Part shown: one piece after another, positions 1,925 to 29,302 of the stretch
How the letters are laid out: each line of letters begins with the position of its first letter
Numbering within the stretch: the stretch's first letter is position 1
NCBI GenBank assembly: GCA_022846035.1
Contig: AP025580.1
Span: 1,984,001 to 2,048,000, forward strand
Direction: 5' to 3'
DNA length: 64,000 bases
From: Christensenellaceae bacterium
Lineage (GTDB): Bacteria; Bacillota; Clostridia; Christensenellales; Christensenellaceae
Made by a program: the position numbers and the translations under genes
Notes under the pieces: generated by a model
What the model saw: the letters and a program-made list of their open reading frames with translations, nothing else
Told to the model about the DNA's origin: nothing
The model's database searches: none

Positions 1925-2356
1925 CTATATCCCAATTACCGATAAATTTTCTCTGTAGCACTCCTCTATCATATCCTTTATAGAGATTTCCCGCATTTTT
2001 GCTTGCATCGTCTGCCCCAAAGTATAAAAGAAAGTACGCAGATAGATTTCTTCTTTTCCAGCCGGCGCATCTCCCTCCGCCGGTTGGTAGAGATTGATCT
2101 CCCCCTCTACCGCACAAAACACCTGATACAAGGAAATATCTTCCGCCTTTCTTGCCAAGTGGTATCCGCCATAACGTCCCTGTTCAGATATAACCATATC
2201 CTTATCACGCAGTATTTTAATAATCTTCATCAAATACAGGTATGTAATGTCCGTTTTCTCAGACAGCTCTGCCGCCGTAATTGGTTTTCCTCTCCCCTTG
2301 TACAAAACTCCCAATATCTTTATCGCATATACGATTGATGATTGAACCCTTAACAT
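1925..2356 (-). CDS. Rrf2-family transcriptional regulator
   Basis: The 143-residue product has the Rrf2 layout: N-terminal winged helix (residues about 1-65, with the YLYLMKIIKILRDKDMV recognition region) followed by the wing motif QGRYGGYHLAR and a long C-terminal dimerisation helix. Rrf2 proteins bind DNA as dimers and often sense Fe-S clusters, nitric oxide or redox state. The three-cysteine cluster of IscR/NsrR is absent here (a single Cys in the VFCAVEG stretch), so an Fe-S cofactor is unlikely. It is the last gene of the minus-strand train, 152 bp below a second Rrf2 gene. Confidence 0.88.
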   Translation of the reverse strand: MLRVQSSIVYAIKILGVLYKGRGKPITAAELSEKTDITYLYLMKIIKILRDKDMVISEQGRYGGYHLARKAEDISLYQVFCAVEGEINLYQPAEGDAPAGKEEIYLRTFFYTLGQTMQAKMREISIKDMIEECYRENLSVIGI

Positions 2357-2508
2357 AACCTTTCTTCACCCCATGCCGTTCGTCAGACGGAAGAAGATCT
2401 ATCATAAAGCAAGACTTCCTGAAGTTTTTCTTCCGTACTACGAATATATTCCTCCATATATTTCCTTTTATTTTTGTCCGACTTTTTTCGCCAAATCTAT
2501 GTGCTGCA

Positions 2509-2913
2509 TCATAAACCGTCAGGCTTTCCTATTTCCTGGCCGTCTATGTATATATCACGAATCGTAATACTTTTAAGAAACGCTTTCTCGCGTTTTTGTA
2601 TCTCCCGCACCAGTCCGATCATCCGCTCATCCTGCCCGCATTTCTCTTCCCATGAGTCCTGTTTCTCAAATACGCAGACCACATCATACAGGGAAACTTT
2701 ACACGGGTCTTGCGCCATACGGAATCCGCCTCTGCATCCCTGCTCGGATTCCACCAGTCCCGCATGCCGGATTATATTCATCACTTTAAAGCAATATTGC
2801 TCGCTTATTCCGGTTTCCTTTACGAGCTCCTTTGCCCTGACCAGGCAGTTTTTCTTTTCACACATATATCCCAAAATCCGTATCGCATAGATTACGGTCG
2901 TATTGATTGTCAT
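2509..2913 (-). CDS. Rrf2-family transcriptional regulator (second copy)
   Basis: This 134-residue Rrf2 protein has a winged helix (about 1-65) with the family motif QGCRGGFRMAQDP and a C-terminal helix. It carries six or so Cys residues, but they are scattered and do not form the IscR-type cluster. Its start lies only 11 bp below the stop of the P60 hydrolase gene, so it is probably translated from the long surface operon mRNA. The two Rrf2 proteins are clearly paralogous in layout but far apart in sequence. An autoregulatory or feedback role for the operon is possible but not shown. Confidence 0.88.
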   Translation of the reverse strand: MTINTTVIYAIRILGYMCEKKNCLVRAKELVKETGISEQYCFKVMNIIRHAGLVESEQGCRGGFRMAQDPCKVSLYDVVCVFEKQDSWEEKCGQDERMIGLVREIQKREKAFLKSITIRDIYIDGQEIGKPDGL

Positions 2914-2924
2914 AGCCTTATCCT

Positions 2925-3716
2925 TTACCCAATAAGCCTTCCAAAGGCATAAAAATGTTCTGTCCAGTATGGCGTATCAATTCTGCTGTACCCAATCGGT
3001 TTCCCGCAATGCAGCATATAATTATTTCCTACATAGATCGCCACGTGCGTCACCGGCCAGTTTGCGTCGTGTGTTCCCTGGAAAAAGATGAGGTCCCCCG
3101 GCCTCGCGTCTTCCCGCGTCACCTTGTTGCACTCATTGTAGATCCCCTGTGCGTTCGTCCGTCCAAGGTCATAAAGCCCTGTCTGGTTGAATACCCAGCA
3201 TACGTATCCTGAGCAATCAAACGAAGTCTCTGGCGTCGATCCGCCCCACACATACGGCATTCCAATATATTTCTTCGCTTCCACTATCAGTTTCAGATAA
3301 TTTTTCTCATTATATACTTCGCCCGGGTATCCGTTTTCCCCGCCGTCCGTCTCATAGCCCTCCGGCTTGTCGTCACGTGCAACAGTAGGCGCTGTCACGG
3401 AAATCTCGTTCCTGCGAATGTATGCCATAATTCCATCTTCAAGCCGGATCGCGTCAAATTTCTCGTTTACATTGACCGCATAAACTTCCAGCGTCTCGCC
3501 GATTCCAACCTGCCCCAAAGTTTCCGCGTCCGCTTCCGGCGCTGCATACAAAACTGTGTCGCACAAAACCGTGCCTGTCACTTTTGTTTTTTTCTGTTGT
3601 TCTTTTGCCTCAGCGAGCGTCATCGGCATCTCATACGCCAAAGATTGTATTGGTATCAAGGTTGTTATAAAAAATGCCAACAACAGGGTACATATTCTTC
3701 TATACTTCATACTCAA
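2925..3716 (-). CDS. Secreted NlpC/P60 peptidoglycan hydrolase with SH3 domain
   Basis: The 263-residue product has a signal peptide (residues about 5-28), a bacterial SH3-like domain (about 46-108), and an NlpC/P60 domain (about 140-260). The catalytic Cys is C168 in FDCSGYVCW, with H224 in THVAIYVG as the catalytic His and H236 as likely third residue. This family cleaves D-gamma-Glu to diamino acid bonds in cell-wall peptides. Translation can start at 3716 or at a second ATG at 3710. Its 5' end overlaps the HD-GYP gene by 17 bp. In this operon it could open the wall for export or insertion of the large surface proteins (inference). Confidence 0.92.
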   Translation of the reverse strand: MSMKYRRICTLLLAFFITTLIPIQSLAYEMPMTLAEAKEQQKKTKVTGTVLCDTVLYAAPEADAETLGQVGIGETLEVYAVNVNEKFDAIRLEDGIMAYIRRNEISVTAPTVARDDKPEGYETDGGENGYPGEVYNEKNYLKLIVEAKKYIGMPYVWGGSTPETSFDCSGYVCWVFNQTGLYDLGRTNAQGIYNECNKVTREDARPGDLIFFQGTHDANWPVTHVAIYVGNNYMLHCGKPIGYSRIDTPYWTEHFYAFGRLIG

Positions 3717-4347
3717 ACCTGCTCCTGTGGTCCATAAACGCCATCACAACCATAGGGTCAAACTGCCTGCCTGCGTTTCGTACAAGCTCCGCATAAATTT
3801 CCTGTTCCGGCAGCCTGTCACGATAAACGCGCCCCTCTTTCATCACATCGTATGCGTCTGCCAGCGCGCATATCCGCGCCTCCAGGGGTATCCTGTTCCT
3901 CTCTTTGCCGTCCGGGTATCCCCCTCCATCCCACCATTCATGATGGCAACGCGCTATTTTCCGCATCCGCTCCCTTGAATCCCGCGTCAGCGGCAGCCCT
4001 CCATAGGTTATGGTCTCTTCCTCCCGGAATAACCGATCCCCATATTCCACATGTTTTTTTACAGCCTCATATTCCCTTTCATTCAAGGCTCCGGCTTTGT
4101 TTAATAGTTTATGGGACACATATGCTTTTCCTATATCATGGAACTGAGCTGCAAGTCCTACTTCAAAAGCGCCTTCTCTGCCACACATGATCTCCCACAA
4201 TTTCCTTGTGTACCTGCCTACCCTCACGCAATGCTCCTGTGCATGGACAGGCATGGCCCACATGAGTTTCAACAGGTCTGTCTTTTCCCGCGCCTCCGCC
4301 GTTTCCTGTAATTTTGCCGTGGTCAATTCCATGGTTTGTTTCCTCAA
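3700..4347 (-). CDS. HD-GYP domain phosphodiesterase
   Basis: This 215-residue stand-alone HD-GYP protein shows the metal-binding His/Asp motif HDIGK (H70, D71), the histidine pair H135/H136 and the GGGYPDG signature (GYP at 143-145). HD-GYP enzymes hydrolyse cyclic di-GMP to pGpG or GMP. No receiver, PAS or membrane domain is fused, so any input must come from partners. The gene overlaps the PRC-barrel gene by ATGA (4344-4347). Finding it inside a surface-structure operon suggests local cyclic di-GMP control of assembly or adhesion (inference). No diguanylate cyclase was seen in the window. Confidence 0.9.
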   Translation of the reverse strand: MRKQTMELTTAKLQETAEAREKTDLLKLMWAMPVHAQEHCVRVGRYTRKLWEIMCGREGAFEVGLAAQFHDIGKAYVSHKLLNKAGALNEREYEAVKKHVEYGDRLFREEETITYGGLPLTRDSRERMRKIARCHHEWWDGGGYPDGKERNRIPLEARICALADAYDVMKEGRVYRDRLPEQEIYAELVRNAGRQFDPMVVMAFMDHRSRFEYEV

Positions 4348-5054
4348 ATATTCACCGTGAGCTCCAGAAGCATTCCGTCGTGCTTCGCCGCCTGCCCCAG
4401 TATATCTTCGTCCAGAACCGTTCCTGCTTCCACCGTAAACGTGCCATCCGCACTTCGTACCGTTTCTTTAAGCACTTTACCCGTTAAAAATCGCACCGTC
4501 TCTTCCTCAAACGGCAGCGCCGCTTCCTTTTGTTCCTCTGCCTTGGGTTCTTCAGGCTGCGGTACCTCGGCCTCAGCCGTATGTTCCGCCTCCGCCGTTT
4601 CCCTCATCTCCATATCCAAAAACACCATTTCGCCGGCCAGCGTCACGATTTTTCCGCCAGGAAACTCCTCCTGGCTGTCCAGGTACAGTGTCTCAATTAC
4701 GCCGGTCTTTTCATCAAAGCTAAAATCCTTTACCTGTCCGGCTACGTTTCCGTTGGATACCAACACCGTCGTTCCCAACATCAGGAATCCTTTCTCGATC
4801 TTTTCCAGCAATTCCCGCGACTCATAGATTTTTTTTGCGTTTTCCGCGCTCTGCGTCATTACGTAATCCGCACCGATTCCCGCGACATCGGTAATATTCA
4901 GCGCTTCATACGCATATCCCCGTCCCGCTTTTAAAATCAGGTATTCGATTCGCTTGGTCTGCGGATCTGCCACAAAGTCTTCCACATAACCGTTTTCCTG
5001 CCCTTCCCTGATTCCCAGTACTTTTAACCCCAGTACTTCGCTTGCCTTTTTCAT
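4344..5054 (-). CDS. Double PRC-barrel domain protein
   Basis: The 236-residue cytoplasmic protein carries two PRC-barrel-like units (residues about 4-75 and 85-160), each with the typical 'LGxxV..G..GxV.D....' start and alternating beta strands. An acidic Glu/Ala/Pro linker (about 160-190) leads to a short C-terminal beta-rich unit containing GTVLDEDIL. PRC barrels are small protein-binding folds seen in photosynthetic reaction centres, RimM and sporulation protein YlmC/YmxH. The start has GGAGG six bases upstream. The partner is unknown; an adaptor role between membrane proteins and cytoplasmic factors of this operon is a guess. Confidence 0.8.
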   Translation of the reverse strand: MKKASEVLGLKVLGIREGQENGYVEDFVADPQTKRIEYLILKAGRGYAYEALNITDVAGIGADYVMTQSAENAKKIYESRELLEKIEKGFLMLGTTVLVSNGNVAGQVKDFSFDEKTGVIETLYLDSQEEFPGGKIVTLAGEMVFLDMEMRETAEAEHTAEAEVPQPEEPKAEEQKEAALPFEEETVRFLTGKVLKETVRSADGTFTVEAGTVLDEDILGQAAKHDGMLLELTVNI

Positions 5055-5086: not shown

Positions 5087-6469
5087 TTACTTATTTTTCC
5101 CCTCCGCGCCACGGAGCACCACGCCTTGCACCTCGTGGAACGTATCCCTTGAGATTTCTTCGCTGGATACTACCTTTCCGTCCAAAAGATAATTGCGCGT
5201 CACCACCGCTTCGTAGCCTTTGCGCCCTTTTACTTTCGTCTGCTGCTTGCCTACCGCCAGTTCGTCTGTGTAAATTACCTGGGGCTGCGGCTCCGGATGT
5301 TCTTCCAGAATTACGCTCTCGATCTCCACTTCATATTCGCATGGCTGTCCGTAGATCGCCACATCCACTATATGGTCCTCAAGCCGCGCTGAAATGTATA
5401 TCGGCCATTCCGACCTGTTCTTCACTTTCAGATCCTTATTGTCCCAGTTGAGCGTCGCGTCCAGTCCCACCGGCAAATAGTCCGACGGCCACGAATGGTG
5501 TACCCGTTCTACGATCTCCATATCCGCTTTAAGCGCCGCGTTATACAGCGTTCCTGCCAATTGGCAGATACCGCCGCCAAGCTCATCCGTCAAATTCTTC
5601 CCATCCGTAATGGCGGGCGCCGGCTTAAAACCCTTTTCCGCAGTTCGTTCGCCTACCAGTTCATTTATGGAGAGCGTTTCCCCCGGCTCCAATACCAGCC
5701 CGTTCACCGCTTCGCACATCAGCCGTATGTTCGCATCCCGATTGGCGTTAGATACCGCCCTGGTTGAGCAACGCCCAATCAGTTCCGTATTCTCCTCCAG
5801 TTCTTCTAGCGTCACTACAGGCTGCGATTCGTGTACCTGCACCTCTACCGTGCCGCCCGCGCCCTTTTCTATTTTCTCCTTTACTTCAAGCGCCGCAGCT
5901 TGTATGTCCGCTTCCTGTCCCGTCTCTTCCGCAGTATATTCAAACGTCCGTGCATACGGATTGAATTCCGCTTTGGCATCCATCGGCTGAACAATCTGCT
6001 GTTCCGCAAATCTTCCTATGGTTTCTTCCAAAGCTTTTTCATCTATGGATAATTCCAGTTTATACCGCGCAGGATTTTTTCTTTCGTCAAAATCCGCGAA
6101 TATATTACCGCTTTTATCCCTGTCATATGCTGCTGCCAGAACCTCGTCTGTATTTGTCGTTGTTCCCAGCTCTTTTGCTGTGTACCGGCGCTCCGCGCCA
6201 TTACATGTAACCGTTACCTGTATCCCAGACAGCAACTCTTCTTCCGCTTTTTTTATTGCTGCCTTTCCATCCTCATTCCCAAGCCCCCCGATGTTTTGAT
6301 CCTCGACGACTGTCTCCGGCGCGAATACTCCTGCATCCGTACCGCCGCGCAGCCCGCTATACACTCCGGAAAACAGCATCACAAAACTGCATCCCGCGAT
6401 CACGGCTATTGTCCCGATCCTGATTTTTGAGATGCTATGGTGCCTGCCATTTCGTCCGTGTTCCTTCAT
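5087..6469 (-). CDS. VanW-family membrane-anchored cell-wall protein
   Basis: The 460-residue product has an N-terminal membrane anchor (residues about 18-38), a putative peptidoglycan-binding domain (about 85-215), a VanW domain (about 235-365, with GGGICQLAGTLYNAAL and the HHSWPSDYLPVGLDAT stretch) and a C-terminal G5-type domain (about 375-450). VanW domains occur in vancomycin-resistance clusters and many Clostridial wall proteins, but their reaction is not established. Length and layout match the common YoaR/VanW type. It overlaps the upstream gene by ATGA. Here it probably ties the complex to the wall. Confidence 0.9.
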   Translation of the reverse strand: MKEHGRNGRHHSISKIRIGTIAVIAGCSFVMLFSGVYSGLRGGTDAGVFAPETVVEDQNIGGLGNEDGKAAIKKAEEELLSGIQVTVTCNGAERRYTAKELGTTTNTDEVLAAAYDRDKSGNIFADFDERKNPARYKLELSIDEKALEETIGRFAEQQIVQPMDAKAEFNPYARTFEYTAEETGQEADIQAAALEVKEKIEKGAGGTVEVQVHESQPVVTLEELEENTELIGRCSTRAVSNANRDANIRLMCEAVNGLVLEPGETLSINELVGERTAEKGFKPAPAITDGKNLTDELGGGICQLAGTLYNAALKADMEIVERVHHSWPSDYLPVGLDATLNWDNKDLKVKNRSEWPIYISARLEDHIVDVAIYGQPCEYEVEIESVILEEHPEPQPQVIYTDELAVGKQQTKVKGRKGYEAVVTRNYLLDGKVVSSEEISRDTFHEVQGVVLRGAEGKNK

Positions 6470-7368
6470 CTTACCTTTTCTTTCAGCAACATCAACGCCG
6501 CTTTCAATTGTATTTTTTCTTCCGGCAGCAACAGATAGCCCGCATTCAGGATCGCGAATACCTGCCTCAGCGCCTTTTCGTAATCCCTGTCTGCCACTAG
6601 CTTCTTAAGTCTATCTATTGCTTTGTGCTTTGCTTCCAAAATTGTCTGCTTTGCTTCATCTGTGGGCGGCGTCTCCGGTTCGGGTTCTGCCGCAATCATT
6701 TTCATTGCGTCCGCTTCTTTCTTTAAAATGGTATCGCTCTGCGGTTTGCTTTCCCATTTCGTTTCTCCGGCCGTATCCTCCGCTTCTTTGGGCGGCATAT
6801 TTTCTTCTGTTGCCTCTTTCACGTGAGTAACCGGCACCGCGCTTTCCTGCCTTTCCGGAAATGTCCGGCTGTGTATCTCGCAAAACCGCAGCTCCGCGTC
6901 CGGCTCTTGCACTTTTGTCTGAGTCTCAGCTTCTTTCCATGACACAGCTTCTTCTTGTTTCTCTGCGTCAGACCTCTGTTTTTCCATCGTCTCCATACCC
7001 GATAGCGGATACTTCTTATTGGTCTGTACAAGTGGTGCAGCAGCCTGCCTTTCCACATTGCCGCATGCTTTCATGTCTCCCATTGGTCTCATTCTTGTTC
7101 TTACGGCCGCCGGTTTACCTGTGTTCCATACCACCGCAGGAAGTACTGTGCCCAGTACGCCGCATGCCGCCGCTACCGCCACGATTGTCAATATAAGGCT
7201 GCCTGTATTCGGAAAATATATGGCGCAGCGTCCAAGCACCGCCGTAAGAGCGCAGCCTGCTCCAAGCGCGACTATTCCGCCAATCTGCCCCCGCGCGTTG
7301 CCCCTGTTTAATATCCATACCGCTGTGATTCCGCCGACTGCGACAATGACCGCCGCTGCTTCCATCAT
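6466..7368 (-). CDS. Membrane protein with cytoplasmic helical C-terminus
   Basis: The 300-residue product begins with three hydrophobic segments (about 3-20, 30-48 and 55-82), then a Glu/Lys/Pro-rich, probably disordered linker (about 95-235), and ends in a compact helical region (about 238-300, rich in Leu, Lys and Ala) resembling one or two TPR-like hairpins. I do not recognise the family. It lies between divIVA and vanW with an ATGA overlap to the latter. Its topology (membrane end plus cytoplasmic helical tail) parallels that of the 7936-9267 product, so both may offer docking sites for DivIVA or another cytoplasmic partner. Confidence 0.75.
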   Translation of the reverse strand: MMEAAAVIVAVGGITAVWILNRGNARGQIGGIVALGAGCALTAVLGRCAIYFPNTGSLILTIVAVAAACGVLGTVLPAVVWNTGKPAAVRTRMRPMGDMKACGNVERQAAAPLVQTNKKYPLSGMETMEKQRSDAEKQEEAVSWKEAETQTKVQEPDAELRFCEIHSRTFPERQESAVPVTHVKEATEENMPPKEAEDTAGETKWESKPQSDTILKKEADAMKMIAAEPEPETPPTDEAKQTILEAKHKAIDRLKKLVADRDYEKALRQVFAILNAGYLLLPEEKIQLKAALMLLKEKVR

Positions 7369-7374: not shown

Positions 7375-7926
7375 TCAGTCTTCCTTTGTATTCGCGCTGC
7401 GGAACTTCCTCGGTTCCTCCGGCAACGCTTCTAAAATTTCACCAATTGTTTCCGCTTTGCTTTTCTCATACTTTTGTTGTACATCCGCTATTTGCGTAAG
7501 CGGTCCCAGCTTTGCTTCCAATATTTGCCGTTGTTCCTGCATAAATTCGCATAACCGCTTCTTGTAGTCATGTATCTGTCCTTCGTATTCCGCTACCTCC
7601 CGCTTGATCTTTTCCAGACGCACCTCCGCGCTTTCCACGATCATTCGGGCATTCTCATTCGTCTCTTTCAGGATTTGCCGCGCCGTTTCTTCCGCTTGTT
7701 CCACAAGGTCTTCCGTCTTACATGACTGCGTTTCCTGCGTGGCAGCATCAGCCGGCTTGGCCGCTCCGCCTTTCAGCCGTTCGATTTCCTCTTCAAGTTG
7801 CTCTATCGTGTATAGTACCTCGTCAAGGAATTCGTCGACTTCCTGCGGATCGTATCCTTTCATCTTTTTTTTGAATTCTTTCTCCAGAATCTCTTGGGCG
7901 CTCAGCTTTTTTCTTAATATTTCCAT
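7375..7926 (-). CDS. DivIVA-domain coiled-coil protein
   Basis: The 183-residue product starts with a DivIVA N-terminal domain (residues about 5-45; LSAQEILEKEFKKKMKGYDP followed by QEVDEFLDEV) and continues as long coiled coil to about residue 150. DivIVA proteins bind strongly curved membrane at septa and poles and recruit other proteins. The start codon has AGGAGG five bases upstream. The usual divIVA location is next to ylm genes in the division cluster; finding a member inside a surface-protein operon is unusual and suggests that this assembly is positioned at a pole, septum or other curved membrane (inference). Confidence 0.92.
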   Translation of the reverse strand: MEILRKKLSAQEILEKEFKKKMKGYDPQEVDEFLDEVLYTIEQLEEEIERLKGGAAKPADAATQETQSCKTEDLVEQAEETARQILKETNENARMIVESAEVRLEKIKREVAEYEGQIHDYKKRLCEFMQEQRQILEAKLGPLTQIADVQQKYEKSKAETIGEILEALPEEPRKFRSANTKED

Positions 7927-7935: not shown

Positions 7936-9267
7936 CTACTTCTCGTCCGCATATCCTCTCAGTTCCTCAAGATCCTTGATCAGTTGGAATTTTTCTTCTT
8001 CCGTATACCCGTAATCTTTCAGCAGCAGTTGTCGCGCTTTCACATACGCCGCCGCGTATTCTCCCGCAAGTTTCAGGCATTCCACCGTCTTTAGCTCAGA
8101 GACATTCCGCACCGCGCTGTCCGTGCTGTTTTTTGCACATTCATGGAATTGTTTCGCCGCCATAATGTAATCTCCGGCATCCATCAGCCAGTATGCCCGT
8201 GGCAGCATATCCTGCAGTCCTGGGCCTGGTACCGCCGCCGTATTTGCGTACCCATTCGTATATCCTACGGTATATCCGCGGTGTACCGCTCTTTCCTGCT
8301 TCAGCGCATCCTGCCATTCCTCTGACAGCTCTGGCCGCCGGTAACCTTTCTCCTCCGGATACATTCCATTCCGCCTGTTTTGCGGCTGTCCTCCATAGGG
8401 TTCCTGCTCCGCCTGCCAACTTTCATTTTTCCGCTTGCGGCTTCTTGTGCGTACTGCCAGGATAACTACTACCGCTACTACTGCCGCCCCGCCGATCATC
8501 AGCCACAGATACGGTATCTCCATATCTCCGATCCGCAGACTTCCAAGACCTTTGGACGCTGTTTCTTCCGGCATTGGCTCCATTTCGATGACGGTCGGAA
8601 CCGACTCCTGTATTGCCGTAGCTTCAGCCGATGCCGTAGGCATAGGCGTAGGTTCTAACGTCGGCTCCGGTGTGGGCTGCGGCATACCGAATGCCAGCGT
8701 CCCCAGCTGCTGGTCCGCCAGCGCAAGGTTCGCTCCTTCCCCGCCTGTATCGTAGATTACCGTAACCGTATAGATTTGTCCTCCATACACCAGCGTCCAG
8801 AGCTTTTCCTCGTAATTGTCGTAGTCCGCGCTATCTCCTACGGCTGTATCCGCCTGTATACCGCCCAGCGTTTCCTGCGTTGTTTCCCCAAATGTATACT
8901 GCTCCGCCTGCGCCGCTTTCACTTCATCCAGCCGCGCGCTGCGCGCCGCCGCTTCGTCTACCGCGCCTGTCTCGTCCGCCGGAGCCGCTTGCGCTTCAAT
9001 CTTCAGCGAATACAAAAGCGGTCCTCCGTTGCTGTCCCCGTACACGCCCGTTAAAAGCTTGACATTCGTATCTTCCCGCGCTTTCTCCAACATCTCTCCG
9101 CTCATGTTTGTCTCGTCCGGCGTATAGTAATAGATATTATCCCCGTCCGGTATATTGATACGAAAATCCGTTCCCGTATATTCCTTTGCAAACGCTGCCA
9201 AGGGCAGCACTGCAATTATGAGTGCCGCTACCGTGGCTATAATCCACTTTTTTATTGTTATGTTCAT
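7936..9267 (-). CDS. Two-pass membrane protein with extracellular and TPR-like cytoplasmic parts
   Basis: The 443-residue product has a signal peptide or anchor (about 8-27), an extracellular alpha/beta domain (about 30-200), a Pro/Thr/Glu spacer with repeats of PTPEPT type (about 200-245), a membrane helix (about 254-276), then an Arg/Gln-rich stretch and a helical C-terminus (about 345-443) resembling TPR repeats. No enzyme motif is visible. The single membrane crossing links an outside domain to a cytoplasmic helical domain, which suits a transmembrane adaptor. It sits 12 bp downstream of the surface protein gene at 9280. Confidence 0.75.
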   Translation of the reverse strand: MNITIKKWIIATVAALIIAVLPLAAFAKEYTGTDFRINIPDGDNIYYYTPDETNMSGEMLEKAREDTNVKLLTGVYGDSNGGPLLYSLKIEAQAAPADETGAVDEAAARSARLDEVKAAQAEQYTFGETTQETLGGIQADTAVGDSADYDNYEEKLWTLVYGGQIYTVTVIYDTGGEGANLALADQQLGTLAFGMPQPTPEPTLEPTPMPTASAEATAIQESVPTVIEMEPMPEETASKGLGSLRIGDMEIPYLWLMIGGAAVVAVVVILAVRTRSRKRKNESWQAEQEPYGGQPQNRRNGMYPEEKGYRRPELSEEWQDALKQERAVHRGYTVGYTNGYANTAAVPGPGLQDMLPRAYWLMDAGDYIMAAKQFHECAKNSTDSAVRNVSELKTVECLKLAGEYAAAYVKARQLLLKDYGYTEEEKFQLIKDLEELRGYADEK

Positions 9268-11022: not shown

Positions 11023-11080
11023 GCCAATACTTCCGTTCCGCTCTTTCCACATAAGACCTTAAATGCCGACTAATCCACCG

Positions 11081-12233: not shown

Positions 12234-12295
12234 AAAAATTTCTCCTTTTGCTTTCCTCAAGCCGGATCTGCACGAAGAACATCCCTGTTCTCCCT

Positions 12296-12320: not shown

Positions 12321-12377
12321 GTTTACTCCTATGTCCACTTGGACATAGATATAAAGTAAACGATTCTTTCGCTTTAC

Positions 12378-14327: not shown

Positions 14328-14329
14328 CT

Positions 14330-23800: not shown

Positions 23801-26800
23801 TTGCTCCACGCGGACGGGTTAATGCTCGCGCCCGTAAACGTAGGCGCGACAAGGTCGCTCGCGTCTACCCGCGCCTCACTGCGCGCGCCAGCGTTATCGT
23901 ACGCGACGATATAGTATATCCCTGCGCCGGAAATCTTCGCGGAAGTATAGACGTCTCCGCTCTTTGTCATCGCCGTGCCGCTGGTCGCGCCGGACGTTGT
24001 GCTGTAGAACACGCGGTTCACGCCGCTCGCGGCGTCCGTGACCGTGGCCGTCAGGATACCGCCCGACGGACGCGCGCCCGAAATGACCGGCGGCGCTGAA
24101 TCCCGCTTGGCCACCACGCTGGGAACAGCGTCGCTGAAGTTGCCCGCGCCGTCCTTGACGCGGATATAATAAGTGGTCGTTCCCTCCGCCAGCGCCGTCG
24201 TGACCGTCGCCGTGCCATTTGCGGCATTATATTCCATGTTCGTGCCGCTCGTCGCTGTGGCGGACGTCGCCAAAAATACCTGCGCGATGCCGCTGCCACC
24301 CGTATCCGCGATGCCGGATACCGTGACGGTATGGTTCCCGTTCGTCCAGCCCGTGGGGGAGATCGTCGCTCCCGTCACGGTCGGTTTATTGACGTCGATC
24401 TGATCCACCGCGATGGAAGCCTCCTTGCGGTTGCCCGCCTGGTCGATCGCCACGACATAATAAGTGCCTGTCTTTGATACGGCAGGCGCGGTATATGTGT
24501 TGCCCGACCGCGACATTGCCGTGCCGCTCTCCGCGTTCGGCGCCGTCGCCAAAAATACGCTCTTGATCCCGCTTTGTGTGTCTCTCACCGTCGCGCTGAC
24601 CGTTTTGGCCGCGGCCCAGCCCGCCGGACTCACAGCCGGCGTCACCGTTGGGTCCGTCGTATCCCGTTTGCCCACGACGCTCAGCGTTTTCGCGGCAAAG
24701 TTGCCCGCGCCGTCTTTCACGCGCAGGTAATATGTATGGGATCCGTCCAGCAGGTCCGCCGTCAAGGTCGCCGTGCCGGTAGCTTCGTTATACGTCAGGT
24801 TCGTGCCGCTCGTCGCCGTGGCCGAAGTGGCATAGAAAACCGCCGCCACGCCGCTGCCGCCCGTGTCGCTGATACCCGTTACCGTAATAGTATGCTTGCC
24901 GTTCGTCCAATCCGTAGGCGTAATTGTCGCCGTGCCTGTCACAGTCGGCGGTTCGGTATCGATCCGGTCCAAAGTGACGCGCGCTTCCGAGCGCAGCCCC
25001 ACTCCGTTGATCGCGACGATATAGTAAGTCCCCTTTGGCAGCTCCTGCGACCGGTAAACGTTGCTGCCCACCGCGGTCATAGCCGTGCCGCTCGTCGCTC
25101 CGGAGGTCGTCGCATAGAACACCTGCGTAATTCCGCTCTGCTCGTCCGTCACGGTGGCGCTGATGGCGGCGCTGCTCGCCCAGCCATCGCCGCCGGCGAC
25201 ATCGATGACCGGCGCAGAGGTATCCCTTTTGGCCGTCACGGTTTTTTGCGCACTCCAATTGCCCGCGTTGTCCTTGACGCGGATGTAATAGGTCGTCTGC
25301 GCATTGGCAGGCGGCGTCAGCGTTGCCGTTGCGCTGCTGCCGGAAAGGCTCATCTTCGTACCGCCGCTTGTGAAGTTGCTGGTCGTGCTGTAATACACGC
25401 CCTCCACGCCGGCGCCACCCGTATCCGCCGCGCCTGTCGCCGTGATGGTAAAGCTGGAGCCACTGCTCCATGCGGACGGACTAATGGACGCGCCCCCAAG
25501 CGTAGGCGGCGTTGGATCTATTTTATCTACGACAACCGGTACGTCTCCGCTCTTCCGGTTGCCCACGTTGTCGATCGCGATAATATAATACGTGCCCGGC
25601 GTAGTGATCGTGCTTGACGTATACGTGTCGCCGGACTGCGTCATTCTGGATCCGCTCGACGCATTGGGGCTGGTTGCCAGCAGCACCATCTTCACGCCGG
25701 CTACGTCCGTGATGGTCGCCTTGATCGTCTTGCTGGGAGCCCAGGAAACCGGATCCTGCGACGCAGATACGGTCGGCGGATCCTTGTCTATGTTGGTTAC
25801 CTGAACAGGCACGTCGATCCGGTTGCCGAGGTTGTCGATCGCGACAATATAATACGTTCCGTTGGCGCTCACTGTGCCCGTATAGGTATTGCCGGACTTC
25901 GTCATGGAATATCCGCTCGTCGCCCCTTCGGACGTCGTATACAGCACCTGCTTGACGCCGCTCTGCGAATCCGTGATGGTCGCGCTGATCTGCCTGGTCC
26001 TCGCGTAGTCCGTCGTATTCTGCTTCGCGTTCGTCACGTCGGGCGGAGTCCGGTCTATATTTGTGATGACCACCGGCTTTGTGGTCACGTTGCCCGCATT
26101 ATCCATTGCCCAAATATAATACGTGCCCGACGCGCCCATATTGCTCGACGTATAGGTGTTTCCAGACGTGTTCGTCATTGTATAGCCGCTCGTCGCGTCC
26201 GGAGACGTCATCAGCAGCACCTGCTTGATACCGCTCGCGTCCGTGATGGTCGCGCTGACTGTTTTCACCCGCGCCCAGTCCGCCGTATTCTGCGTCTCGT
26301 TGGTAATGGTCGGACCAGTGCGGTCACGGTTGATATTCGTCACCGATACCGCCGTCCTGGAGGAAACCGGGTTGCCCGCTTTATCTATCGCCCAAATATA
26401 ATATGTGCCCTCGTCAACAATGTCCGGCGAAGTCCACGTGCTGCCTGACGTATTCGTCATCTTATAGCCGCTGGTTCCTGTGGAGGTGGTCATCAGCCAC
26501 ACTTGATCGACGCCGCTCTGCGAATCCGTTACTGTCGCGCTGACCGTCTTGCTCGCAGCCGAAGCGGTAGTGTTTTGCTTCGCGTTGGAAACCGACGGGC
26601 CTGTCCGGTCGATGTTAACGACGTTTACCGCCCTTGTCGCCTTATTTCCGGCCTTGTCGAACGCGACGACGTACCACGTTCCCGTGGAGGACACTGTGCC
26701 CGTCCACGTGTTGCCGGACTGCGTCATTTGATAACCGCTCGTCGCGTCGGCGGACTCCATCAGCCATACGTCCCTCACGCCGCTCTGCGAATCCGTTACC

Positions 26801-27654
26801 GTCGCGCTGACGCTCTGACTCTGCGCCCACGCCGTGGAAACCTGGCGCGCGTTGGTAATGCTCGGCAGATTTGTTTCTATCTTCTGTGGGGAAAATGATA
26901 CGGTATCCACCATCATCCATATTCCACTCGGCGGCCATCCCGAAGGATCGTCGCTCTCCATATAAACTGAACCCCAATAATATGTTCCGGGGGCGCCTAC
27001 TTTCACGATCCCGCTGCCCTGCCACTTGTTTTCGCTCACTTTGTGGCACATAATGCCGTTGGACTCGTCCATAACGTCGGTTTTGATATTAAAGGAAAGC
27101 TGCGCGCATTTATCCGGCACGCCCGTCGCCGTAATGGTAACGACGTACGTTCCGTTCGACCATTCCGAAGCAGACGGCGTGGACGTGACAGTATAGTTGA
27201 TTGCGTACGGGTCGGTATACGCGGCGCTGCGCGCGGAATACAGCGACGCGGAACGCGAATACACCGTGCCGTCTGCCTGGTCCGCTTCATCCGGCTGCGT
27301 CGCCGCGGCGTCAGCTTCACTGACCGCCCTCATTTTCATTTTCGGCTGCACCGCTATATCCGGAATCTGCTCCTCCCCGAGCTCCGGCTGCGCGGGCACG
27401 CTCAACACGGGCACCTCCTGCATTTCCGGTTCTTCCGGTGCAGTGCCATCCGGTATGTTCACCTGCTGTGGCTGCGCCGGTTCGGACGGAGGTTGTATGT
27501 CAACCATTTGCTGTCCGGATTCATTGTCGCTTCCAAATAAATTAAACGGCAATTCCCATGCGTACGCGAGCGGCGTATACGCAAGCATCATTACGACAAC
27601 CAGCGTAATCGCCACTACATATATGATTTTGTTTCGTTTCCCTTTCCTGCCCAT
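14848..27654 (-). CDS. 4268-residue secreted protein with Ig-like repeat array
   Basis: The protein has a membrane-type signal sequence (about 10-32), a Pro/Glu/Gln-rich spacer (about 40-135) and then a long array of Ig-like units to about residue 3475. Type A units (about 80-85 residues) carry 'TVSATVTDSQSGV...TSGxxMT..G..Y...GTYYIVAxDNAGN'. Type B units (about 95) carry 'W-S-N-x-x-S-F-T-I-T-A-T-G-x-x-D-T-G-G-S-G-V' and 'TPPANAQTTYYIRVKDNAGN'. Around residues 3480-3700 is a region with TWWSRTGYKTTSRVW and GIRPEVYLD, like DUF6273 domains. More Ig-like units follow, then a final 160-residue domain with ISVSIPVKMLFAAL and TNNS. No LPXTG or hydrophobic tail is present. Such arrays usually form stalks for adhesion or matrix binding. 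It is the second gene of the operon. Confidence 0.88.
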   Translation of the reverse strand: MGRKGKRNKIIYVVAITLVVVMMLAYTPLAYAWELPFNLFGSDNESGQQMVDIQPPSEPAQPQQVNIPDGTAPEEPEMQEVPVLSVPAQPELGEEQIPDIAVQPKMKMRAVSEADAAATQPDEADQADGTVYSRSASLYSARSAAYTDPYAINYTVTSTPSASEWSNGTYVVTITATGVPDKCAQLSFNIKTDVMDESNGIMCHKVSENKWQGSGIVKVGAPGTYYWGSVYMESDDPSGWPPSGIWMMVDTVSFSPQKIETNLPSITNARQVSTAWAQSQSVSATVTDSQSGVRDVWLMESADATSGYQMTQSGNTWTGTVSSTGTWYVVAFDKAGNKATRAVNVVNIDRTGPSVSNAKQNTTASAASKTVSATVTDSQSGVDQVWLMTTSTGTSGYKMTNTSGSTWTSPDIVDEGTYYIWAIDKAGNPVSSRTAVSVTNINRDRTGPTITNETQNTADWARVKTVSATITDASGIKQVLLMTSPDATSGYTMTNTSGNTYTSSNMGASGTYYIWAMDNAGNVTTKPVVITNIDRTPPDVTNAKQNTTDYARTRQISATITDSQSGVKQVLYTTSEGATSGYSMTKSGNTYTGTVSANGTYYIVAIDNLGNRIDVPVQVTNIDKDPPTVSASQDPVSWAPSKTIKATITDVAGVKMVLLATSPNASSGSRMTQSGDTYTSSTITTPGTYYIIAIDNVGNRKSGDVPVVVDKIDPTPPTLGGASISPSAWSSGSSFTITATGAADTGGAGVEGVYYSTTSNFTSGGTKMSLSGSSATATLTPPANAQTTYYIRVKDNAGNWSAQKTVTAKRDTSAPVIDVAGGDGWASSAAISATVTDEQSGITQVFYATTSGATSGTAMTAVGSNVYRSQELPKGTYYIVAINGVGLRSEARVTLDRIDTEPPTVTGTATITPTDWTNGKHTITVTGISDTGGSGVAAVFYATSATATSGTNLTYNEATGTATLTADLLDGSHTYYLRVKDGAGNFAAKTLSVVGKRDTTDPTVTPAVSPAGWAAAKTVSATVRDTQSGIKSVFLATAPNAESGTAMSRSGNTYTAPAVSKTGTYYVVAIDQAGNRKEASIAVDQIDVNKPTVTGATISPTGWTNGNHTVTVSGIADTGGSGIAQVFLATSATATSGTNMEYNAANGTATVTTALAEGTTTYYIRVKDGAGNFSDAVPSVVAKRDSAPPVISGARPSGGILTATVTDAASGVNRVFYSTTSGATSGTAMTKSGDVYTSAKISGAGIYYIVAYDNAGARSEARVDASDLVAPTFTGASINPSAWSNGASFTITASGISDTGGSGVASAFYSTSSSAVSGTAMTLNAAKTQATVTLTPPANAQTTYYLYIVDGSGNISSPRSVVAKRDTAAPTMSGATISPDTWTTQTTFTIRVTGIADTGGSGVSQVFYSTTENATSGTAMSRSGSTASATITAPKSQETKYYIRVKDAAGNLSTQQVVSAKNVQPGVDGPEVVAVTSHINTSTTTGGHSIQARIKAGFVATKGPEVTGAFMTFDPNATSGTNMSWSDGTGYGYWNGYLTNSENRPVYYIRLVDSAGLVGPAFEVSALEASLVFRTNHGNLTATISPSRGYVTTKKVVNVVATNVASYVTNVRFNFVRGTNDSSATTTIPMTKSGTTWTGSADITDNMQIYFDAYFDGASSSEGKGKTSIAPEPLWRSISNIDPAAPTITNVEQSTTGWVNSTTISAVVQDPDTHTDQYSRSNSSGIREVFWSKTSGATSGTAMSGSTYDSSSSPYKYKYTSKALTSPGTYYIVAYDNAGNRTQTSITLKNLDATAPTMTAASIDPSAWTDTSSFTITATGVADTGGSGVEGVYYSTTSNFTSGGTKMTLSGSTATATLTPPDNASTTYYVRVKDNAGNWSTQKSVAAKRDSSSPSITNAKQSSDTWGESKTISATVTDTGSGLKSVFWSKTSGATSGTAMTASGSTYTSGAINEEGTYYIVAYDNAGHRSQQSVTITKIDLAAPSMTGASISPDSWSNADSFTITATGVADTGSAGVEGVYYSTTSNFTSGGSGLADVFWTTTSGATEGNLMMDNGDVYTSGDLSEAGTYYIVAYDVAGNRTQTQVVVSNIDMEAPTVSGASILPAEWSNAESFTLTATGIADTGGSNVEGVYYSTTKNFTSGGTKMALTGNTATASITPPVNASTTYYVRVKDNAGNWSTQVSAVAKRDTAAPAITNVQNNAGQILATITDSGGSGLKSVFWSATDGATSGTALTPTEGDGYMTEPGALADNGAYYIVAYDNAGNRSQYAINVSNIDKEAPTFTGLAIDPASWSNAESFTLTATGLADTGGSGVAEVFCSTSSGAESGTRMTISGTTATLTLTPPANAQTTYYVRVKDGAGNLSAEKSIVAKRDTTIPSLTGASINPADWSNGSNYTITVEGVSDMGGSDVEGVYYSTEPDFTSGGTKMTLSGGTSTATFAPPQNMETIYYIRVRDNAGNWSEQKTVAARQDTLPPEYDVSIDPSDWSFDATFTINVTNVQDPGGSGIGEAFYSTVSGAESGISMMVVGDSASVTVAPDTNKQTTYYVRVRDNAGNLSEEKAVTAKRDTGLPTMTGLTISPTGWNTDGGSPTYTLTATGVEDFGGSGVKEVFYTTDANATSGTVMTLIGGTATATFVPPANAHTTYYVFVKDNAGNLSTPMSAEAKRDSTAPVIAGASIDPADWSNADSFTITATGVTDAGSSEIAEVFYSTTSGATSGTKMTLSGDTATATLTPPANAQTTYYIRAKDNAGNLSNELSVTAKRDTVAPVMNKATISPEVWSNGDSFLITAEGVLDTGGSEIAEVFYATDANAESGTAMTLTGDTATATLTPPENAATSYYVRIKDHAGNLSRAIEVTAFRDTLAPTISKLEIEPTGWSNGSGFTITASGIEDLGGSGIAQVFYSTTPDATTGTRIESYSPRTGTASVTVTPPADAQTTYYVRAIDKAGNLGPQLSVVAKRDTTAPTGSIKVGEHNIWSAFVNAITFGIYFNEQQPVVIDAADEGGSGLAGIQYYIASEALTRQQLLDVEETSWKDYAAFTLLPEDRYVVYAKLADNAGNVTYIGTDGMVFDTTAPVVGAEDTVDVTPPWAHIGAETVTVTASGVEDVMKTGLVSGETDVMSDIAYAYLMKTAGSTADVDIVGTFAKQEDGTFTCAMSPTEAEEIYYLRAVDNAGNWNDPSTSVKVTLRADLVAPVMENIRQEIVAGNVLVRVDATDVGSGMDKVYVAKTPDAESGVMLSKADENEYSGYLLEGGKLYLIAADKAGNRTVSELTELDDMDHIPPEITNVTANGDSTVSADITDTGSGVGMAYLSEDKDAETGMIMTRQNDTDTYVSPRVETGKTYYVIAYDKAGNRAVAEITIDAQPDKTRPVITGVQSPEDPAYGKVIVATANDPAGRQGEMVSGIDENRVYLLTSDDASATEGTPLTRQDDGTYVSPETRQAGTYYVFCYDKAGNRSKNAAVVVDAIVTGGGTPIRPSGAGGIDTYYQGGGSGAAMDSTKALVWMGGTLFRTMETGAYLAEDLVGQTQFHGRTSTNYSASLLLPEMETFAQTVSGTPGLRTIDLPDVDVKGQTAYPLHHGPSTTDTTDSELLNTAYFPQGNTSRAAGLKDTPTSGLTWWSRTGYKTTSRVWAVNQIGQVQSYTVTGNYGIRPEVYLDHTQAFFVPASAGGGAPESGETLVRSMGAFKSVSAGEARIQNAGTAVGNAQTYRVFTLDGTNAALPENRITASATSDGSLIIRYEGASHGADNYLSAMLVNKETHEKWTARLGNIPEANGEQAVSLPHVDGKGVVGDSNYLLYVWNENEAGRNACSPLQFEMSDLKLPDNPKIVKITQQPEDWTGASEEKTITAEATFAENCTQKKLEIAQNADGSGEKYTLTANADGTYSTTQVKTGGIWYVIATDGTNKLSAVQPFDVKIDTTPPTITSAGLGHGNTLYATAEDAQSGMGSMYWSQSADGTGLQEMTLSSGAYVSQELLGLGIYYVYAVDAVGNRSLPTAVEVSALYDTTPPDISNIVITQQEDGRFKVSFKVEDIAKAPEPASGVKPETVMWKSRKEGEYTAAQLDPEHADGSHYYFLTDDSIENTAHYIYAEDWAGNAAEKEAVNQTGVISVSIPVKMLFAALPDTYGGKFYAPEYTVTNNSETNKLNVSLVGFEADESSKGFELVAPGTKLAQNQMTLYLSGLGDTGGAFGGLSKTALLPGGFDMEKRLAIGNLAKAVPGADGADGKYTFAGDIPEYNLMQLQTLEALRAKFQMTLLFEKDYTG
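17230..26860 (-). repeat. In-frame tandem repeat array coding Ig-like units
   Basis: About 9.6 kb of the giant gene consists of tandem units of roughly 245-290 bp in two alternating classes (A and B), about thirty in all by eye. Near-identical DNA blocks recur, for example the stretch coding YYSTTSNFTSGG in at least four places (around 21230, 21575, 22130 and 25375). The 3'-proximal units (19000-20800) are nearly all type B, while the 5' units (24000-26860) are mainly type A. One unit at about 21565 is a fusion of two partial units. High local identity makes this region prone to copy-number change. Confidence 0.85.
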
Positions 27655-27690
27655 TTTGCCTTACTCTTCCCGATCTATCTATCCGATCCC

Positions 27691-27707
27691 GTGCGCGCCG
27701 CGCGCAC
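27691..27707 (-). other. GC-rich hairpin between GLUG gene and giant gene
   Basis: GTGCGCG-CCG-CGCGCAC forms a perfect 7-bp GC stem in the 103-bp gap between the 27758 gene and the giant gene. No T-run follows, so it is more likely an mRNA stability or processing element than a terminator. Confidence 0.4.
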
Positions 27708-27757
27708 ATCCTGTCAAGCTTCTGATGCCGTATGATTCTATATCAATCAAACTCTGC

Positions 27758-29302
27758 TTATTGCGCGTGGCGTACCGCGCAACGAAACTCTTTGACGTAG
27801 TCTTCCTCCGCCGCCGTAAACGTATATTCCCGCTCTGTCGCGCCCGGAATGTCCGTCCACGTTTGTCCGCCGTCCATGCTCTGCTGCCACTGGTACGCAA
27901 GGTTTTCCCCTTCCGCTTCGACGCTGAACGTCACGCTCTCGCCTATCTCTCCCGTCTGGTCGTTCGGGTTGCGCGTAATGCTGATCTGCGGTTGTTCCTC
28001 CTCAGCTACGCCGTCCTCCGCTCCGATCTGCAAAGGAAACACGCTGTCCTCCGGCATGAGCGGCTGGACGCCGGAAATCTGGTTGGGGAAAATTGGGTCA
28101 ATCGGCTCCAGCTCTTTCTCTACGCTGATATTCTGTGAAATAATCACCGGCGTGAAAAAGCGCACTTCAGTTTTTTCGCCGTCCGGCCACGTTTTGGCAT
28201 ACACGGCCTCCACGTCTTCCGCGCCCGTCTCTTCCTTGCTCGTAATGGTTACGGCAGCGCCGTCCGCGCTGCCCAGCGCGAGGATCGTTTCGCTGCCCTG
28301 CCAGCCCTGGAATGCCAGCCCGAACTGGTTCGCTCTCTGTGTATCCGCCGTGACCCGCGCCTGCTGTCCACCGGTTCCCAGCGTCACATAGGCTGGGTCG
28401 GATTTCAGTGTCATCACGCCGTCCGCAGCGTCAATCGGGCTGTCTATCCCAAACGCGCTGCTTGCATACGCGCCGGACCACAGGCAGTTTTCGTAAGCTT
28501 CCGCAGCAGCGTCCGCCTTTCCTGCCAGCGCGCCGTCCAGCTTGCCCTCGTTCGGATTATGCACATAAACCTGCACATTCTGAATGTTCTTTGCCTGCCG
28601 GATCTCCGCGGCCAGCCCGCCGGATATGCCGTCTTCGCTTTCGTCACGTTTATGAAGCGCTCCTTGCACGCAAATATCGGCAATCTCCGCTTCACCGTCC
28701 ACCGTGCCAAAGAGGGTTCCCTGGCTGCTGCCGGGGCCGCACTTGACGTCCCTCAGGCTCAGCCCGCTGATGGAGCCGGTAAAATAACCGAATATGCCCG
28801 TTCCATGCTCCGGAAGAATCAAAACATTTTTGATCATATGCCCATTCCCGAGGAACGTTCCTGAAAACGGCGCTTCTTCGCTGCCAATAGACGCCCAGCC
28901 GATTCCCTGACCGTCGATGTCATTTTCCAGGATATACGTCCCATCAAGCGGATAAGCTTCTTCAACGCCGATACGCCGGAATTCCTCCAGCGTCGTGATA
29001 CGGATCGCGCCCTCCGCCTGCTCCTTGTCCTCCGCCTGCGTCGGCGAATGGCTGGGCGAAGCCGAGGCTTCCGGTAGTTGCAGCGCGTTATTTGATGGTG
29101 ATTCCGAAGCCGAGGCTTGCGTGTCTCCCGCCTGCAGCCCTCCTGTCGCGGAGGTCTCCGGCCCTACGTCTGCACTGCCGGGCACTGCATCATTTGATGC
29201 AAAAGCGGAAGCAGCAAAACAGAACACCAGTAGTGCGCCGAGTACTGCCGCAAATAATTTATTTTTTTGTTTTGCCTTTACAATTCGGTTTATCTTTTTC
29301 AT
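27758..29302 (-). CDS. Secreted protein with GLUG-type repeats and Ig-like end; first gene of surface operon
   Basis: I place the start at 29302 (MKKINRIVKAKQKNKL), giving 514 residues, because AAAGGA lies about ten bases upstream and a signal peptide follows (about 13-34, ending AFA-SN); the in-frame ATG at 29362 lacks a usable site. After an Ala/Ser/Pro-rich spacer comes 'ITTLEEFRRIG...Y.LENDIDGQG..WASIG....FSGTFLGNGHMIKNV....GIFGYF', typical of M26-N/GLUG repeat proteins (about 95-260). A second beta-rich part and a C-terminal Ig-like domain (about 430-514, AYQWQQSMDGGQTWTDIPGA) follow. GLUG regions are common in surface adhesins and IgA proteases; no protease motif is present here. Confidence 0.82.
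   Translation of the reverse strand: MKKINRIVKAKQKNKLFAAVLGALLVFCFAASAFASNDAVPGSADVGPETSATGGLQAGDTQASASESPSNNALQLPEASASPSHSPTQAEDKEQAEGAIRITTLEEFRRIGVEEAYPLDGTYILENDIDGQGIGWASIGSEEAPFSGTFLGNGHMIKNVLILPEHGTGIFGYFTGSISGLSLRDVKCGPGSSQGTLFGTVDGEAEIADICVQGALHKRDESEDGISGGLAAEIRQAKNIQNVQVYVHNPNEGKLDGALAGKADAAAEAYENCLWSGAYASSAFGIDSPIDAADGVMTLKSDPAYVTLGTGGQQARVTADTQRANQFGLAFQGWQGSETILALGSADGAAVTITSKEETGAEDVEAVYAKTWPDGEKTEVRFFTPVIISQNISVEKELEPIDPIFPNQISGVQPLMPEDSVFPLQIGAEDGVAEEEQPQISITRNPNDQTGEIGESVTFSVEAEGENLAYQWQQSMDGGQTWTDIPGATEREYTFTAAEEDYVKEFRCAVRHAQ

Follow-up and report, generated by a model that had tools for sequence, protein, structure and literature searches.

A giant surface protein and alternating membrane-anchored Ig-type partners in a Christensenella operon: a candidate docking system shared by gut bacteria

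The WxL cluster combines a small WxL protein, a large protein with a C-terminal WxL domain and an immunoglobulin (Ig)-type transmembrane (TM) partner, WxLIP, of which a hairpin strand is predicted to insert into and complete the WxL sandwich (PMC10599100). TasA and TapA represent strand exchange in a Gram-positive, with TapA described as an Ig-fold, chaperone-like partner (PMC10151520). For an archaeal thread, fibres built by donor strands have been reported for which neither chaperone nor usher is known (PMC9715654). This work describes a run of 18 genes in a 64,000-nucleotide stretch of Christensenella DNA (the window; positions 1984001-2048000 of a 2,768,446-base, single-contig genome, G000), in which a giant surface protein and two small secreted proteins with the same C-terminal domain alternate with four membrane-anchored proteins, Par1-4. 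We tentatively propose, with a probability of roughly 0.45, that the Pars retain surface proteins with no other visible anchor by their pilin-like ends, probably through strand complementation.

The widespread core is a giant protein with an NNS end, small NNS proteins and membrane-anchored Ig-type Pars between them. NNS1, NNS2 and the last ~170 residues of the giant form one domain family, termed NNS, with the giant's C-terminal domain included in the NNS profile by construction. The giant has an N-terminal signal-like segment and, in a simple hydropathy scan, no further hydrophobic segment; an LPxTG-like motif in its last 300 residues and a C-terminal hydrophobic segment were both sought and not found, while its OmpL47-type repeats exceed the NCBIfam cut-off. 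Par1-4 are paralogous (27-51% identity to the first in alignment A1), each composed of a basic N-terminus, a single N-terminal hydrophobic segment and a C-terminal domain. At E ≤ 0.1, the 33 NNS members together matched eight Pfam families, none of them in more than one member (best E 0.0054), and the 68 Pars together matched 24, none in more than three Pars (best E 0.0021), the cut-offs being compared for the first family member only. Of the small proteins searched against NCBIfam (NNS1, NNS2, Par3 and Par4), Par4 alone had a match, one far below cut-off. Among PDB sequence profiles, no chain matched NNS at E ≤ 1 and the matches of Par were at chance level. Pairwise hhalign comparisons of the NNS, Par, WxL, WxLIP and A4 (a second small secreted family, see below) profiles all gave ≤ 2.5%, the WxL and WxLIP profiles consisting of four and two sequences from one genome, so deep kinship is still possible. 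With no Pfam or NCBIfam model found, NNS and Par appear to be two undescribed families common to many gut bacteria. No description of the gene set was found in the literature searched, a body of work from which most subscription journals and bioRxiv preprints are absent.

The locus resembles the WxL cluster in having a small and a large protein with a common C-terminal domain next to an Ig-type TM partner, the Ig fold being predicted here. The families differ. WxL (PF13731) is not among the eight Pfam families matched by the 33 NNS members at E ≤ 0.1, PF13731 has no match in the window's genome, and NNS against WxL reached 0.1% in hhalign (with the weak four-sequence WxL profile). WxLIP (DUF916-DUF3324) is not among the 24 families of the 68 Pars, and PF06030 was found neither in the window's genome nor in that of C. 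intestinihominis (G003). The architecture of a Par, a single predicted Ig domain behind an N-terminal TM segment, differs from that of WxLIP, with two Ig domains and a C-terminal TM segment; several Pars moreover alternate with their neighbours here, four of them in the window's operon. Because the layout is the same and neither WxL nor WxLIP was matched, we regard the locus as one that probably works like a WxL cluster but do not file it as one.

The gene order giant-Par4-NNS2-Par3-NNS1-Par2-Par1, in the direction of transcription, is common to three Christensenella genomes (G000, G003 and G004). Identity between the window and G003 is 79% for Par3, 72% for Par2 and NNS1, 67% for Par1, 42% for Par4 and 36% for NNS2. 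A search with the four-row Par alignment A1 matched 12 of 61 genomes, many by the TM segment only; four genomes gave at least 98 bits, and strong matches occur in the same three of six Christensenella genomes. In a Par tree of 69 rows (Shimodaira-Hasegawa-like approximate likelihood ratio support only; every set quoted with a value is starred), the Pars group by their place in the operon. The giant-side Pars of the three genomes fall in one set of four Christensenella Pars (98), their NNS2-side Pars in a single set (95), and their last Pars in a common set that includes one Eubacterium callanderi Par (96); the NNS1-side Pars of the window and G003 pair (97). Thirteen of the first Pars in Hungatella group in a single set (100), and the second and third Pars separate into 14 and 14, where the rows of L077, L085 and L086, labelled second by coordinate, group with the third Pars. 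Position labels change 13 times on the tree, against a mean of 45 for shuffled labels, and none of 200 shuffles was as low. These place-specific sets fit dedicated partners. Whole-cassette duplication in Hungatella would give the same pattern, which makes the tree support rather than proof. A separate C. intestinihominis cassette (L037) groups with cassettes of Eggerthellaceae (97), which implies that the module either has been transferred between phyla or is ancient.

Scanning named genomes with the Par alignment yielded 24 loci, from C. intestinihominis, E. callanderi, Adlercreutzia, Enteroscipio, Gordonibacter, other Eggerthellaceae, Lachnospiraceae and Hungatella hathewayi; an NNS match at E ≤ 0.001 is present in 20 of them, with a profile iterated on the same loci. 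The single genome of H. hathewayi WAL-18680 carries 14 giant/Par/NNS loci (L073-L082 and L084-L087). Some of these follow one another at intervals of ~14 kb, and most have three place-specific Pars; together they suggest an extensive set of paralogous surface proteins. The other window queries (CPDreg, TMadapt, DivIVA, TMhel, VanW, PRC, HD, P60 and Rrf2; see Table 1) matched only twice at E ≤ 1e-4 within the 23 non-Christensenella loci of ~13-21 kb, a P60-type protein in L074 and an Rrf2 protein in L091, and the core occurs without DivIVA, VanW, PRC or TMadapt in E. callanderi, Hungatella and Eggerthellaceae. The E. callanderi locus ends with a 166-residue CarboxypepD_reg-like TM protein (Pfam, below cut-off).

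In a Clostridia sample, Par was detected at E ≤ 1e-8 in 24 of 393 genomes, giving 30 loci. In distant Clostridia, Pars are paired with A4, a family of small, secreted, pilin-like proteins that begin with YTVTIP and close with a GTYSGTLTF-type stretch; A4 is found in 16 of the 22 loci outside Christensenella and the NNS loci (L095, L096, L102 and L119). Measured from start to start, the distance to a Par is at most 5 kb for 17 of 21 NNS matches in 34 genomes and at most 10 kb for 18, the remaining three being weak (E 2.9e-7 to 6.1e-7); the corresponding figures for A4 are 29 and 32 of 35 matches in 46 genomes. The A4 profile, built from Par neighbours, had no match in 21 genomes that lack a Par at E ≤ 1e-8, all of them members of the window's order. 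Conversely, 40 of 52 Par matches have an NNS or A4 partner within 5 kb. Some of the other 12 have a different secreted neighbour: a protein of ~360-460 residues with a 'DPERL' stretch, seen beside the distant Pars of L101, L107 and L110, is unmatched by the A4 profile and may be a third partner type. Of 29 large ORFs (open reading frames; at least 400 residues) just upstream of a Par, 20 end in an NNS or A4 domain (last 260 residues, E < 0.005). Rows of the profile account for four of these (the window, G003, G004 and G012), and the end of L038 closely copies such rows; the remaining 15 include E. callanderi (2e-16), four Hungatella giants (≤ 1.7e-7) and L105 (A4, 7e-19). In a control with shuffled ends, seven of 580 matched at a threshold equivalent to E 0.01.

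Structural models were compared with known folds. The AlphaFold2 (AF2) model of Par3 (residues 11-179; predicted local distance difference test (pLDDT) 91.9) consists of a TM helix, a short helix and a beta-sandwich. Foldseek ranks the pilus chaperone DraB first for this model (E 1.2e-3, TMq 0.38), and titles and chain lengths identify 12 of the 50 rows as pilus chaperones. In VIA, GbpA (Z 8.8), macroglobulins (up to 8.0) and FimC (7.8) are found beside Brr2, glycosidases and chaperones. The NNS2 model (pLDDT 83.2) has the Pyrobaculum pilus 7ueg as its first VIA row (Z 8.6, root-mean-square deviation (rmsd) 2.7, 122 aligned), followed by the Sulfolobus thread 7pnb (6.8), 9h8b (6.5), 3me0 (6.5) and PapG, FimG and FimH (~6.4); the TasA fibre 8aur has Z 6.3 (rmsd 3.7, 128 aligned), a value often seen between unrelated models. 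Of the 50 NNS2 rows, which were drawn from Foldseek's own top 1000 in a PDB rich in FimH entries, 43 are adhesins, subunits of pili, fibres or archaeal tubes, or chaperones of these. The predicted NNS fold resembles strand-exchange pilins and TasA, and that of Par resembles Ig folds including pilus chaperones; these likenesses are not decisive.

A comparable pairing of Ig chaperone-like and pilin-like folds, as the models predict it here, is that of chaperone-usher pili (FimC/FimH, CsuC/CsuA/B). The SCPU family contains Csu-type pilins, and one A4 protein at a distant locus, beside a Par (L122:946-1434), exceeds its Pfam cut-off (22.8 versus 22.4 bits). Two further A4 members, L111 and L112, score 20.0 and 19.4 bits, below cut-off, and no SCPU match at E ≤ 0.1 was obtained for the other 14 of 17 A4 members or for any of the 33 NNS members. 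Against the PDB, the A4 profile matched CsuA/B and SCPU chains weakly (E ~0.03), and its best-scoring row (E 0.0035) is a different protein, aligned over 35 positions. The systems differ in other respects: the usher (PF00577) has no match in 25 Par genomes and was found, among 14 controls, in E. coli; Omp85 is likewise matched in 0 of 25; and no PapD family occurs among the Pfam matches of the 68 Pars (E ≤ 0.1). A Par is a TM-anchored single Ig domain, the Par3 model having room for one beta-sandwich, whereas PapD has two domains. A possible likeness to TasA/TapA lies in the TasA fibre among the VIA matches of NNS2 and in the Ig-fold, chaperone-like character of TapA. In contrast to that system, no sequence relation was seen (NNS profile against PDB chains, E ≤ 1), a giant partner and multiple Pars are present, and the Pfam matches of the 18 genes include no signal peptidase (no search was aimed at TapA or SipW). 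The giant also differs from sortase-anchored surface proteins, since it lacks their combination of an LPxTG-like motif and a TM segment.

We infer from these observations that Pars bind their neighbours, donate a strand and anchor the giant, with labour divided along the operon. The giant and the small NNS proteins would exit via Sec, each carrying a pilin-like beta-sandwich and each paired with the adjoining Par. A basic N-terminus lies inside according to the positive-inside rule, and a Par would have its N-terminus inside, one TM segment and a single Ig domain outside. It may bind the pilin-like domain on emergence, most likely by donating a beta-strand, and this binding would stabilise the domain and hold the giant at the membrane or wall. 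The Par is assigned this holding role because the giant has neither a sortase motif nor a TM segment of its own. Small NNS proteins on the same platform could be spacers or subunits of a short polymer, and P60, VanW, PRC and HD may tend the wall around the giant. A matched membrane partner would explain how some very large gut surface proteins are retained without a usual anchor. Given its 14 copies in one Hungatella genome and its sharing with Eggerthellaceae, this could be a main surface-display system of these gut residents. Should strand complementation prove correct, the chaperone/pilin principle in single-membrane bacteria would no longer be confined to TasA and WxL.

Several results weigh against this docking model. 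No Foldseek match at E ≤ 0.001 was obtained for the Par3 or the NNS2 model, the 50 VIA rows of Par3 lie within 1.5 Z and identify an Ig domain and little more, and just one NNS2 row, the first, is above Z 8, a score frequently obtained with unrelated models. Seven of the 43 pilus-related NNS2 rows are lectin domains and four are chaperones, and the NNS2 model shows neither a donor strand nor an open groove. The NNS and A4 profiles have no convincing match to each other (2.2%, hhalign), and 12 of the 52 Par matches have no detected partner within 5 kb. The G004 giant is split in two overlapping frames, the NNS1-side Par of that genome does not join its positional group, and the giant-side Par of E. 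callanderi, on a very long branch, falls outside the giant-side set. In Adlercreutzia, large proteins encoded after the second Par (L071:10543-13782, L072:4637-7195 and L083:10522-14214) carry a sortase-like LAKTGD/LAQTGD tail and a C-terminal hydrophobic stretch, from which we conclude that other anchors coexist there.

Two explanations read the same proteins differently. In one, which we consider improbable, the operon encodes an usher-less pilus: NNS proteins would polymerise by donor-strand exchange, the giant would be a FimH-like tip adhesin and the Pars would be membrane-anchored PapD-like chaperones acting before polymerisation. The fold matches of Par3 and NNS2, the pilin-like domain at the end of the giant, as in FimH, and the A4 protein over the SCPU cut-off are consistent with it; with neither usher nor Omp85 matched in the 25 Par genomes, export would need no usher, and TasA/TapA offers a case of strand exchange in a Gram-positive (PMC10151520). 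The lack of a donor strand or open groove in the NNS2 model argues against it, as do the presence of three NNS domains for four Pars in the operon and the unusual size of a 4268-residue tip. The docking model shares these chaperone-like and pilin-like folds, and we know of no filament here. A broader conjecture, speculative and on present evidence rather unlikely, is an usher-less chaperone-pilin pathway in single-membrane gut bacteria, in which TM-anchored, single-domain PapD-like chaperones, each serving the pilin-domain protein encoded next to it, would use donor-strand complementation to build giant FimH-like adhesins and small subunits into the surface, with two pilin types without detectable sequence kinship (NNS and SCPU-like) and one chaperone family across Clostridia and Eggerthellaceae. 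A simpler alternative, also doubtful in our view, is that Par binds NNS domains with no strand being donated, or that it attaches to wall polymer as an Ig-type accessory and only co-occurs with surface proteins. The generic Ig matches of the Par fold, among them the carbohydrate-related GbpA and glycosidase Ig domains, suit this explanation, while the alternating gene order and the place-specific Pars suggest matched protein partners.

The 18 minus-strand ORFs are consecutive in the window (29362 to 1925; Table 1), with 13 of the 17 gene junctions at ≤ 39 nucleotides, four overlaps among them (-17, -4, -4 and -4), and the other four at 152, 64, 97 and 103. The operon, as read from this layout, probably comprises the whole run, and an inverted repeat just 5' of the first gene, with 17 pairs and a T-rich tail, is its likely 5' border. 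Pfam cut-offs are exceeded by both Rrf2 proteins, NlpC/P60, HD_5, PRC, VanW with PG_binding_4 and G5, DivIVA and CarboxypepD_reg. An earlier note, made by a model from the letters of this DNA, had named the Rrf2, P60, HD-GYP, PRC, VanW and DivIVA proteins, together with a tightly packed run, four paralogous single-pass proteins and two secreted proteins sharing the domain of the giant's C-terminus, all of which our analysis confirms. Its upper end, 29302, proved to be an internal Met of the ORF that starts at 29362, and its GLUG label for the first gene has no Pfam support at E ≤ 0.1. A tblastn search of plasmids with an Rrf2 protein returned distant regulators only.

Most of the run is syntenic in two congeners. 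In C. intestinihominis (G003) the row reads GLUG-type gene, giant, Par4, NNS2, Par3, NNS1, Par2, Par1, CPDreg, TMhel, TMadapt, PRC, HD, P60, Rrf2, with window identities of 46% over 426 residues for the GLUG-type gene, 42% for CPDreg (38% in G004), 66% for PRC (partial, at the locus edge), 57% for P60, 34% for HD, 32% for TMadapt and Rrf2 a, and 30% for TMhel. In G004, the same order from giant to CPDreg is followed by a 161-residue ORF, TMadapt, PRC and P60 and then by a TMhel-VanW-PRC set, to which the VanW near this operon belongs, with its own PRC; HD, Rrf2 and a recognisable TMhel were not found in the operon itself. A third congener, G002, keeps a truncated VanW (a 210-residue piece, 81%), TMadapt, PRC, HD, P60 and Rrf2, without a giant or NNS match and with Par as a weak TM-end match only. 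Its VanW piece begins 131 bases after a complete 16S-23S-5S operon (L059:1576-11900), and the 81% identity of this piece, versus 33-61% for its neighbours, may mark a deletion or recombination border. P60 identity is 57-61% across the three congeners, and HD is present in G003 and G002. An Rrf2 gene directly follows P60 in G003 and G002, not in G004, and Rrf2 a is its best window match (79 and 86 bits). TMadapt is in the operons of all three, with relatives, partly a paralogue elsewhere, in six of six Christensenella genomes. DivIVA has no match in the operon loci of G003, G004 and G002, and VanW is not in the G003 operon. PRC-VanW occurs without an adjoining giant, Par or NNS in G000, G003, G005 and G012 (in G012 with CPDreg); the second PRC-VanW-TMhel set of G000 (L055; VanW paralogue C1:1784768-1786117) has identities of 52%, 51% and 42%, with no giant, Par or NNS beside it. 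A DivIVA-like gene (39%) and TMadapt lie beside another giant/Par locus of C. intestinihominis (L038:1320-3201, contig C12), and the link of DivIVA to giant/Par occurs twice in the genus.

The earlier note had taken the 18 genes for one undescribed envelope-spanning machine. A single machine, placed by DivIVA and switched by cyclic-di-GMP, is in our assessment highly unlikely. It would agree with the tight gene packing, with the retention of CPDreg, TMadapt, PRC and P60 next to the core in both syntenic congeners, one of which also keeps TMhel, HD and Rrf2 there, with the syntenic Rrf2 gene of G003 and G002, and with the DivIVA-TMadapt pair at another G003 giant/Par locus. Yet DivIVA, VanW, HD and Rrf2 are each absent from at least one syntenic operon, and both halves occur apart. 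What stands of the claim is a conserved, undescribed surface-assembly set of giant, Par, NNS, CPDreg, TMadapt, PRC and P60, syntenic in G003 and G004; DivIVA and VanW, listed as parts of the machine, are probably not obligatory. The note's own check, co-occurrence in relatives, came out largely as the broken-up set that it had given as grounds for refutation, with giant, Par and NNS without the rest in other genera and the wall half alone in G002, while its membrane ring, curvature-guided placement and second-messenger control were drawn from domain names. Its surface core holds, and the partner-by-partner layout and the pilin-like, WxL-like logic had been overlooked. The opposite extreme, a surface cluster co-transcribed by chance with an unrelated wall-maintenance operon, would be compatible with docking for the surface half and is suggested by G002 (wall half only) and the other genera (surface half only). 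We think it unlikely, as both halves stand together in three congeners. In the docking model, TMadapt, PRC, HD-GYP, P60 and Rrf2 would form a separable envelope-tending module of the genus, to which VanW, TMhel and DivIVA are added in some genomes. The C-termini of TMhel and TMadapt were considered as possible homologues, a relation unsupported by blastp (E 0.34).

Table 1. Features of the operon in window coordinates
Feature	Coordinates	Strand	Basis
Inverted repeat with T-rich tail, likely 5' border	29417..29454	-	Consensus match
First gene, secreted, 534 residues	27758..29362	-	Weak C-terminal PKD/Ig-like similarity; Pfam PKD E 0.038, below cut-off
Giant, secreted, 4268 residues, Ig-like repeats, C-terminal NNS	14848..27654	-	Ig_7, DUF7743, OmpL47-type repeats
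Par4, N-terminal TM and predicted extracellular Ig-type domain, adjoins giant	14330..14851	-	Paralogue alignment, Par tree
NNS2, small secreted protein, predicted pilin-like	13665..14327	-	NNS family, AF2 model, fold matches
Par3, N-terminal TM and predicted extracellular Ig-type domain	13093..13632	-	AF2 model, fold matches
NNS1, small secreted protein, predicted pilin-like	12378..12995	-	NNS family
Par2	11697..12338	-	Alignment and tree; judged by eye, translation may begin at an internal Met ~36 codons downstream
Par1	11081..11632	-	Alignment and tree
CPDreg, secreted CarboxypepD_reg repeats, C-terminal TM	9280..11052	-	PF13620 E 3.9e-22
TMadapt, signal-like segment, outside domain, one TM, helical-looking C-terminal end	7936..9267	-	Hydropathy
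DivIVA-family coiled coil, lineage-specific	7375..7926	-	PF05103 64.5 bits
TMhel, N-terminal TMs, long charged C-terminus	6466..7368	-	Hydropathy
VanW with PG_binding_4 and G5	5087..6469	-	Pfam
PRC-barrel protein	4344..5054	-	Pfam
HD-GYP-type phosphodiesterase	3700..4347	-	HD_5 E 5.8e-23; GYP motif by eye
NlpC/P60 peptidoglycan hydrolase	2925..3716	-	Pfam
Rrf2 regulator b, 11 nucleotides after P60	2509..2913	-	Pfam
Rrf2 regulator a	1925..2356	-	Pfam

Elsewhere in the window, the minus strand upstream of the operon (29580-31428) encodes a ParB-like protein, recognised by eye, that overlaps a DUF3440/PAPS-reductase protein, a pair that we take to resemble IbrB/IbrA. On the plus strand, two regulators of ~490 residues with two GntR stretches each (31599-33068 and 35837-37327) stand around a hybrid histidine kinase. 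A second giant of 3773 residues (46833-58154, minus strand) has 25 RHS-repeat stretches and a DUF6531 match and is followed by a lipoprotein-like gene and a small membrane gene, both assigned by eye. Signal peptidase I, a MacB-like permease, a CARDB surface protein and an ABC ATPase are encoded in a row at 59427-63570 on the minus strand, the permease and the ATPase being identified by eye.

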